Shown here one piece after another: positions 7,971-37,781 of a DNA stretch of 64,000 nt. The stretch lies in NCBI GenBank assembly GCA_018896525.1, contig JAHIMR010000048.1:62001-126000 (forward strand), written 5' to 3'. Numbering within the stretch: position 1 is the stretch's first letter; every line of letters begins with the position of its first letter. The notes under the pieces were generated by a model, which worked only from the letters and a program-made list of their open reading frames with translations, did no database searches and had not been told where the DNA came from. The translations under genes were made by a program, and so were the position numbers. The DNA comes from Actinomycetota bacterium (lineage in GTDB: Bacteria > Actinomycetota > Geothermincolia > Fen-727 > Anoxymicrobiaceae).

Positions 7971-9467
7971 CTACCGTTCAAGGCGCCAGCGGAATCCGTC
8001 CTGCACGTCCTCCACCCTGACACCCAGTTCCGCCAGCCCGTCGCGAATCCTGTCCGCGAACTCGAAGTTCCCGCCTTCCCTGGCGGTTTCCCTTACCCGC
8101 AACAGCAACTCGATCAACTGCTCCCGGGACGGGCCCTCGGTGGCGGCCGGGCCACCCATGGGCACCCGCTCCACCGAGCCCGCCGACTCCGCCGCTCCCC
8201 GGAACAGCCCCAGGGCCCCGCAGAGACCGTCCAGCACCCGCTGCGCCTCCAGCAGGACAAGCTTGCCGGCGGGCGTCTTGATGTCCCCGGCCTCGTCGAG
8301 GTAGCTGTTTACCTCCCGCACCACACCGAATATGACCCCCAGGGCTGCCGCCGAGTTGAAGTCGTCATCCATGTGCCCGCGGAACTCGACCTCGGCCTCG
8401 TTCAGGAAGTGCACCAGCACGGTCTGGCGATCGCTGTGGTGGAGCCCCGCCTTCTCGCCCGCGGCCTTCCTGATATGGTCCTCCAGGTTGAAACGGCAGT
8501 TCCTGATCCTCGCCAGTGAGGCGTGGACCTCAGCCAGGGAACCATCTCCAAAGCTCAACGGGCTTCGGTAGTGGGTGCCCAGCATCAGCATCCGTACGGT
8601 GTCCGCGTCGTGTTCGGCCAGGACCTCCCGCAGCGACCTTATGTTCCCGAGCGACTTTGACATCTTCTCACGGTCGATGTTCAGCATCCCGCTATGCAGC
8701 CAGTACCGCACGAACCGGGCTCCGTCGGCGAACGCCTCCGACTGTGCTATCTCGTTCTCGTGGTGGGGGAAGATGAGGTCCTGGCCCCCACCGTGAATAT
8801 CGAACCCGGTTCCCAGGTACTTGATGGACATGGTGGAGCACTCGATATGCCACCCCGGCCGGCCGGGGCCCCATGGGCTCTCCCAGGAGGGCTCCCCCGG
8901 CTTTGACGCCTTCCACAACGCGAAATCGAACGGGTCCCGCTTTCGGGCCGCATCCACCTCGCACTGGACGGTCATCCTCTGCTCCTCCAGGTTCCGCCTG
9001 GAGAGTTTTCCGTAATCGTCGAACCTCTTGACCTCGAAATACACATCGCCGTCCGACTCGTAGGCGTACCCTTTTTCAACCAGCGCTTCGATGACCTCCA
9101 GCATATCGGGTATGCACTCCGTGGCCCTGGGCGCGATATCCGGGGGCTCGATCCCCAGCGCCGCCATGTCCTCCTCGAACGCCACCCGGTACTTCTCGGC
9201 CACCACGTCGGTTGATACGCCTTCCTCGTTGGCCTTTCCTATTATCTTGTCGTCCACGTCGGTGACGTTCTGCACGTAGGTGACATCGAAGCCGGCAAAC
9301 CGCAGGTACCCCTGTATCATGTCAAAGTTGATGAACGTGCGCGCGTTGCCTATGTGGATGTAGTTATAGACGGTCGGTCCGCACACGTACATCGATATCT
9401 TGCCGTCCTCGCGCGGGACCAACTCCTCTTTCCCCCTGGTCATCGTGTTGTAGACCTTGATGCTCAT
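7971..9467 (-). CDS. cysS: Cysteinyl-tRNA synthetase
   Basis: MYVCGPTVYNYIHIGNARTFINFDMIQGYL; GWHIECSTMSIKYLG; FDIHGGGQDLIFPHHENEIAQSEAF; KMSKSLGN. Confidence 0.97.
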   Translation of the reverse strand: MSIKVYNTMTRGKEELVPREDGKISMYVCGPTVYNYIHIGNARTFINFDMIQGYLRFAGFDVTYVQNVTDVDDKIIGKANEEGVSTDVVAEKYRVAFEEDMAALGIEPPDIAPRATECIPDMLEVIEALVEKGYAYESDGDVYFEVKRFDDYGKLSRRNLEEQRMTVQCEVDAARKRDPFDFALWKASKPGEPSWESPWGPGRPGWHIECSTMSIKYLGTGFDIHGGGQDLIFPHHENEIAQSEAFADGARFVRYWLHSGMLNIDREKMSKSLGNIRSLREVLAEHDADTVRMLMLGTHYRSPLSFGDGSLAEVHASLARIRNCRFNLEDHIRKAAGEKAGLHHSDRQTVLVHFLNEAEVEFRGHMDDDFNSAAALGVIFGVVREVNSYLDEAGDIKTPAGKLVLLEAQRVLDGLCGALGLFRGAAESAGSVERVPMGGPAATEGPSREQLIELLLRVRETAREGGNFEFADRIRDGLAELGVRVEDVQDGFRWRLER

Positions 9468-36862: not shown

Positions 36863-36956
36863 TGGAGGGGAGTAGTGGGAATCGAACTCCACCCCGGTTT
36901 TATCAGAACCGGCCAGCGGGTTTGCAGCCCGTGGGAGACCCAGTCTCGTACTCCCC
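36863..36956 (-). tRNA. Non-canonical tRNA: anticodon GCA (Cys), U73, encoded CCA, on a SelC-like body (8-bp acceptor, long variable arm, bulged T stem)
   Basis: Minus strand GGGGAGTA-C-GAGACTGGGTCTC-CCACGGG-CTGCAAA-CCCGCTGG-CCGGTT-CTGATAA-AACCGG-GG..TGG(A)G-TTCGATT-CCCAC-TACTCCCC-T-CCA; acceptor GGGGAGTA/TACTCCCC is 8 perfect pairs. Confidence 0.85.
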
Positions 36957-37206: not shown

Positions 37207-37299
37207 TGGCGGAGAGAGTGGGATTCGAACCCACGGGACGGAGCTAAGCCGCCCACACGCTCTCCAGGCGTGCGCCTTCGTCCACTCGGCCATCTCTCC
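37207..37299 (-). tRNA. tRNA-Ser (anticodon GGA), CCA encoded
   Basis: Minus strand GGAGAGATGGCCGAGTGG...CACGCCTGGAGAGCGTG...long variable arm...GTGGGTTCGAATCCCACTCTCTCC-G-CCA. Confidence 0.95.
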
Positions 37300-37353
37300 G
37301 AGATTGAGTTTAGCAGTAGGGCACGCGTTATTCCACAACCCACCGTTGGTTAT

Positions 37354-37501
37354 CGGATGGGGATGCCGGCAGGTTGCCGGCGCTACGGGGAGTTCTTCGA
37401 TACGCCTCGGATGGGGATGCCGGCAGGTTGCCGGCGCTACGGGGAGTTCTTCGATACGCCTCGGATGGGGATGCCGGCAGGTTGCCGGCGCTACGGGGAG
37501 T
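37354..37501. repeat. 54-bp tandem repeat, ~2.7 copies, each carrying the GATGCCGGCAGGTTGCCGGCGCTAC core
   Basis: CGGATGGGGATGCCGGCAGGTTGCCGGCGCTACGGGGAGTTCTTCGATACGCCT repeated at 37354, 37408 and 37462 (partial). Confidence 0.9.
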
Positions 37502-37781
37502 CCCCGGAGGCGTCATCCTTCCAGTTCCACCACTTCAGGAGTTCGGGGTCGTGCGTTTCGTTTGATGCGTAGTAGACGTCGCACCTGAACACGTAGAGCA
37601 TGCACCGGTCAACGTTCACGCCTTCCCCAAGGCACATCCTGCCGTACAGCTCCTCGGGATCGCGGCCCTCGAGATCTCCAACGGAATGAATGCCCATCTT
37701 ATGCAAATCCCGGGATATCTTCTTTCCCACCCCCGGGATCTCCCGGAGTTGCTCCGGTTCGCGCGTCTTCACAGGAGTCAC
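37491..37781 (-). CDS. Helix-hairpin-helix, Cdd1/'pathogenicity locus'-like small protein
   Basis: LREIPGVGKKISRDLHKMGIHSVGDLEGRDPEELYGRMCLGEGVNVDRCMLYVFRCDVYYASN; GTG start overlapping the permease stop; C-terminus runs into the tandem repeat. Confidence 0.75.
   Translation of the reverse strand: MTPVKTREPEQLREIPGVGKKISRDLHKMGIHSVGDLEGRDPEELYGRMCLGEGVNVDRCMLYVFRCDVYYASNETHDPELLKWWNWKDDASGDSP

Follow-up and report, generated by a model that had tools for sequence, protein, structure and literature searches.

A selC*-type tRNA-Cys with an 8/5 tRNA-Sec-like body in Geothermincolia and its candidate role at selenocysteine UGA codons

Bacterial tRNAs that join a tRNA-Sec-like body to a cysteine anticodon have been described before. 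The tRNA-Sec-like tRNA-Cys(GCA) of Desulfotomaculum nigrificans is reported, in a 2024 review (PMC11415595) that describes the work of Vargas-Rodriguez et al. (2018), to read Sec UGA as Cys, to have no interaction with EF-Tu and to be delivered by SelB. The selC* group, with its A51a bulge and the genes selB* and cysS*, is set out in a second review (PMC7609411), which describes the work of Mukai et al. (2017), and it has been proposed that Cys stands in for Sec under selenium scarcity (PMC9437257). The gene analyzed here, which is of this already known type but from another bacterial class and of another structural subtype, lies in a window of 64,000 nucleotides (the whole stretch of DNA analyzed) from a genome of the actinomycetote class Geothermincolia. 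Its features and those of its surroundings are as follows.

36863..36956, minus strand: selC*-type tRNA-Cys gene, 94 nt including the encoded CCA (fold, pair counts, homologues)
36935..36947, minus strand: D arm GAGAC-TGG-GTCTC, 5 bp (100% of cells paired; both-side change in 4/5 pairs)
36923..36925, minus strand: anticodon GCA in loop CTGCAAA (sequence; invariant in alignments A1 and A3, in A3 fixed beforehand by the search pattern)
36916, minus strand: a C left unpaired in the 3' strand of the anticodon stem (relatives also have a single unpaired base there)
36894..36912, minus strand: long variable arm CCGGTT-CTGATAA-AACCGG, 6 bp (both-side change in 4/6 pairs)
36875..36892, minus strand: T arm, 5 bp, the 8/5 form by T-arm typing, with the A at 36888 bulging out between pairs 52 and 53
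36866, minus strand: discriminator U73 (sequence; kept in relatives)
37207..37299, minus strand: tRNA-Ser(GGA), upstream of selC*, a neighbor only
about 7983-9461, minus strand: cysS, the sole CysRS gene found in the genome (TIGR00435, 506 bits; PDB relatives)

From 36956 downward, the 5' part of the gene reads GGGGAGTA C GAGAC TGG GTCTC CCA CGGG CTGCAAA CCCG C TGG and the 3' part CCGGTT CTGATAA AACCGG G GTGG A G TTCGATT C CCAC TACTCCCC T CCA. Sequence and predicted fold give an acceptor of 8 bp, and the minimum-free-energy fold is the same cloverleaf. All the stems listed in a first-pass annotation of this DNA are present, as is the unpaired C that it had placed in the anticodon stem. The D loop, which it had taken to lack the usual GG, is TGG and holds the conserved GG. 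Its bulged A in the T arm stands, but the 8/4 fold proposed with it does not: there are five T-stem pairs, and the 3' strand from the T loop to U73 measures 13 nt, which gives an 8/5 fold with a bulge. ARAGORN makes no call at the window copy. RF00005, the canonical tRNA model, has no match to it at cut-off; the acceptor is of 8 bp where a canonical tRNA has 7. RF01852 (tRNA-Sec) scores it at 46.6 bits, below the gathering score of 47. A search for a sigma-70 consensus promoter of the gene found none. A terminator-like hairpin (37190-37169) separates it from the tRNA-Ser(GGA) gene, next to which a 54-nt repeat is found three times head-to-tail (37353-37514), two of the copies being identical and one 87% so.

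Because the single-sequence fold only modestly beats shuffled sequences (z -1.6), we relied on comparative evidence for the reality of the gene. Homologues with 77-100% identity are present in 13 of the 31 other genomes of the class, and a covariance model recovers 14 of the 32 genomes at 97-119 bits; the next matches fall to 48 bits, several of them adjoining selB and being tRNA-Sec genes. In a sequence-only alignment of 15 copies, standard pairs fill 97.2% of the pair cells and both partners have changed in 15 of the 31 pairs, a count matched by none of 500 shuffles, while sliding the structure by 1-3 columns lowers the paired share to 43-58%. GCA, U73 and CCA are kept across the class. The copy of a sister species is identical at 94 of 94 positions, although homology spans just 129 bases around the gene and the remainder of that short contig is unlike the window region. 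We found no conserved neighbor gene inside Geothermincolia. The gene is hence a real RNA conserved in structure, and random decay of its stems in close relatives, named earlier as a possible refutation, is not seen.

The host genome (2.92 Mb in 140 contigs, 92% complete) was checked for the rest of the Cys and Sec machinery, with these results on contigs C44 and C55, the latter not the contig of the window.

C44:106254: canonical tRNA-Cys(GCA)
C55:30269: tRNA-Sec(UCA) with G73
C55:30559: SelB, single copy in the genome
C55:32516: selA
C55:34650: selD

Since a canonical tRNA-Cys and a tRNA-Sec system are both present, the window tRNA is neither the sole tRNA-Cys nor a remnant of selC, and the suggestion that it is a selC relic retuned to Cys falls with the intact tRNA-Sec(UCA), selA, selB and UGA-containing selD on a separate contig. 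The selD gene has its in-frame UGA in the motif GSGUASK, and UGA therefore very probably means Sec in this genome; no stable SECIS-like hairpin was found after that codon, where the fold is weaker than that of shuffles. The cysS gene is in the same window, as had been noted, and its product is presumed to be the enzyme that charges selC*. Neither selB* nor cysS* was found in the genome, which has one SelB and one CysRS.

To place the gene in a wider context, we used a pattern scan over one genome per species (85,462 species), which yielded 69 stretches, all with GCA by construction as the anticodon arm was fixed in the pattern. Most come from Desulfotomaculales and related Clostridia, Syntrophobacteria and other former Deltaproteobacteria, and several actinomycetote groups, and U73 is kept across the family. 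T-arm typing (n=73) assigns 22 to the published 8/4 form with a bulged base at 51a and 48 to an 8/5 form, either without a bulge (17) or with one at 50a, 51a or 52a (31); the window gene is 8/5 with A52a. For the remaining three, which are divergent, a 7/5 reading also fits. Divergent U73/GCA tRNAs whose anticodon and D arms resemble those of selC*, and whose acceptor-T split could likewise be 7/5, are seen at L126:635-738, L132:5435-5535 and L102:833-935 in Planctomycetota, Acidobacteria and Actinomycetota records; the first has yedE/yedF nearby. Judged from sequence, the group comprises two subtypes, 8/4 with a 51a bulge and 8/5, a division absent from the reviews of the group cited here. 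The same reviews do not mention the spread through Geothermincolia, the linkage to yedE/yedF, selD and cysE-cysS, or the altered SelB* residues described below.

The subtypes differ in their partners: selB lies within 3 kb of selC* at 17 of 22 8/4 loci and at none of the 8/5 loci (Fisher p 3e-12, ignoring relatedness). D180, R181 and R236 (E. coli numbering) line the Sec pocket of SelB. Their equivalents are kept in 31 housekeeping SelB proteins, which have Ala at position 238, whereas the 16 SelB* proteins encoded beside selC* have Gly there without exception (16/16), and seven of the 16 carry Gln, Lys or His in place of R181. The only SelB of our host genome is of the housekeeping kind. In five Syntrophobacteria loci (L071, L074, L092, L135 and L072) an MvhD-like gene directly follows selC* and precedes selB*; the encoded protein, unusual in its Cys-rich motif (CFCCQWCSY or one resembling it), could be a target specific to the selC*/selB* pair. 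No UGA was found at the Cys motif of these mvhD genes. Separately, Desulfacinum and Desulfosoma, in which selC*(GCA) and selB* occur, have a second CysRS-like gene of distant relationship, at G040:C65:30116-31501, G041:C21:199186-200571 and G053:C2:60978-62378; it scores about 240-246 bits, short of the cut-off, and its contig is not that of selC*.

Genes of selenium metabolism recur near selC*. Within 3 kb, selB, yedE, yedF or selD is found at 27 of 73 loci (L116, whose supposed SelB starts like EF-Tu and whose tRNA match is weak at 23.7 bits, was dropped), as against 0 of 30 tRNA loci of the host genome, with a control flank half as long. These include yedE and yedF at six loci (L108, L124, L128, L137, L120 and G016) and selD at two (L093 and L112), and formate-dehydrogenase-like genes are among the neighbors at this distance; comparative genomics has tied YedE and YedF to selenium use (PMC5322559). 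In G004, a genome of the same family, the gene order is gltX-cysE-selC*-cysS. Of 70 selC* genomes checked, 69 have a SelB above the cut-off, compared to 125 of 199 genomes across the phylum; this wider association, among genomes related to one another, is stronger than the one within the class, which is not significant (14/14 versus 28/32, p 0.085). The one exception, L076 (genome G058), is also the only checked selC* genome without selA and without SelD above the cut-off, a gap that points to gene loss or an incomplete assembly. LysR-type regulator genes lie 70 to 1350 bases from selC* in L073, L093 and L112, and one also adjoins the tRNA-Sec of the host genome (L032); a selenium-linked LysR group has been described (PMC5322559).

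Taken together, these observations make it probable, in our assessment, that selC* inserts Cys at Sec UGA codons through charging by CysRS and delivery by SelB. CysRS would charge it with cysteine, recognizing U73 and GCA. The Sec-like 8/5 acceptor-T branch and long variable arm would direct it to SelB rather than EF-Tu for carriage to the ribosome, as we infer because the Desulfotomaculum case is reported so. Cys placed at Sec UGA would then yield fall-back selenoproteins, for instance the UGA-containing SelD of the host, when selenium is short. The charging, delivery, decoding and selenium dependence of the window tRNA are all inferred, the same role being assigned to it because body, anticodon, discriminator and genomic setting are orthologous. 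In favor of this reading are the covarying, conserved structure with GCA, U73 and CCA, the complete Sec system and UGA-containing selD of the same genome, the SelB co-occurrence, the selenium-gene linkage and the cysE/cysS flanks in G004. Against it, GCA can read UGA only with a G-A mismatch at the third position; the housekeeping SelB, the sole copy in the genome, should prefer Sec; and within the class selC* is patchy (14/32), with no conserved neighbor and a SelB association short of significance. The earlier description of an additional, specialized tRNA-Cys with a tRNA-Sec-like body is supported, its kind being known from the non-canonical cloverleaf literature, and of the alternatives offered with it the recoding tRNA is the one favored by literature and genomic linkage.

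The GCA anticodon, U73 and CCA would equally suit a minor tRNA-Cys that EF-Tu delivers to the usual UGC/UGU codons, perhaps in certain conditions, and the lack of selB* in the host genome agrees with this. We consider such a role unlikely, as a canonical tRNA-Cys(GCA) is present, a relative is reported to do without EF-Tu (PMC11415595), and the Sec-like body, near-strict SelB co-occurrence and selenium-gene linkage would go unexplained. A sense-codon tRNA-Sec of the kind reported for Aeromonas salmonicida (PMC11415595), which is charged by SerRS, converted by SelA and places Sec at UGC/UGU, would account for the Sec-like body, long variable arm, GCA and RF01852 score, with SelA and SelD at hand in the genome; it is made very improbable by U73, which is family-wide where the tRNA-Sec and tRNA-Ser of the host have G73, and by the cysE/cysS flanks in G004.

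The linkage to yedE, yedF and cysE, genes of transport and assimilation, could also befit an RNA that takes no part in decoding, either a donor of amino acids or a regulator such as a Cys/Se sensor that sequesters SelB or CysRS. Yet the anticodon loop, the CCA and every helix are conserved in the manner of a functional tRNA, and we give this idea equally little credence. As for a decaying pseudogene or chance hairpins, which the silence of ARAGORN, the bulged stems and the promoter search might suggest, compensated pair changes in every helix and the unaltered copy of the sister species, whose wider surroundings are not homologous, rule it out for practical purposes.

Returning to Cys insertion at UGA, it is conceivable, if somewhat short of an even chance, that two such systems exist in parallel: an 8/4 (51a) tRNA with its own pocket-altered SelB*, and an 8/5 tRNA, like that of the window, served by the same housekeeping SelB as tRNA-Sec, so that in Geothermincolia a single factor would bring either Sec or Cys to a given UGA depending on selenium supply. 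If Cys insertion at UGA is right, members of a deep-branching actinomycetote class could make cysteine versions of selenoproteins from the same UGA-containing genes, and the meaning of a codon would change reversibly. The 8/4 form with selB* and the 8/5 form without it, along with the pocket changes of SelB*, offer a direct test of how an elongation factor chooses both tRNA body and amino acid.

As to its standing among known systems, the window tRNA shares with the allo-tRNAs (8/4 or 9/3) a non-canonical acceptor/T split and a long variable arm; those have been described as isoacceptors for Ser or Ala whose branches measure 12 bp (PMC7609411), whereas it combines Cys elements with a branch of 13 bp. 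Bacterial tRNA-Sec (selC, RF01852) has the same 8/5 branch, long variable arm and UGG D loop, and an anticodon loop one base off, but is defined by UCA and G73; the window gene has GCA and U73, falls below the Rfam cut-off and coexists with a true, separate tRNA-Sec. The 8/4-A51a selC* form is matched in the Sec-like arms, U73, GCA, 8-bp acceptor and the single A that bulges from the T stem on its 5' side. That narrow form has a 4-bp T stem with an unpaired A at 51a and an adjoining selB*, in some cases cysS*; with 5 bp, A52a, a single distant SelB and one CysRS, the window tRNA lies outside it. By its sequence features it is instead a member of the wider tRNA-Sec-like tRNA-Cys (selC*) group, with U73, GCA (the group also admits UCA), a Sec-like body of 8-bp acceptor, small D loop and long variable arm, and a separate canonical tRNA-Cys plus tRNA-Sec/SelB in the same genome. 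The D. nigrificans tRNA-Cys comes from this group too: most Desulfotomaculales forms carry either no bulge or a bulged C at 51a or 50a, unlike the A52a of our actinomycetote host, but GCA, the tRNA-Sec-like structure and a SelB-bearing host are common to both, and the Desulfotomaculales relatives share the 8/5 body.
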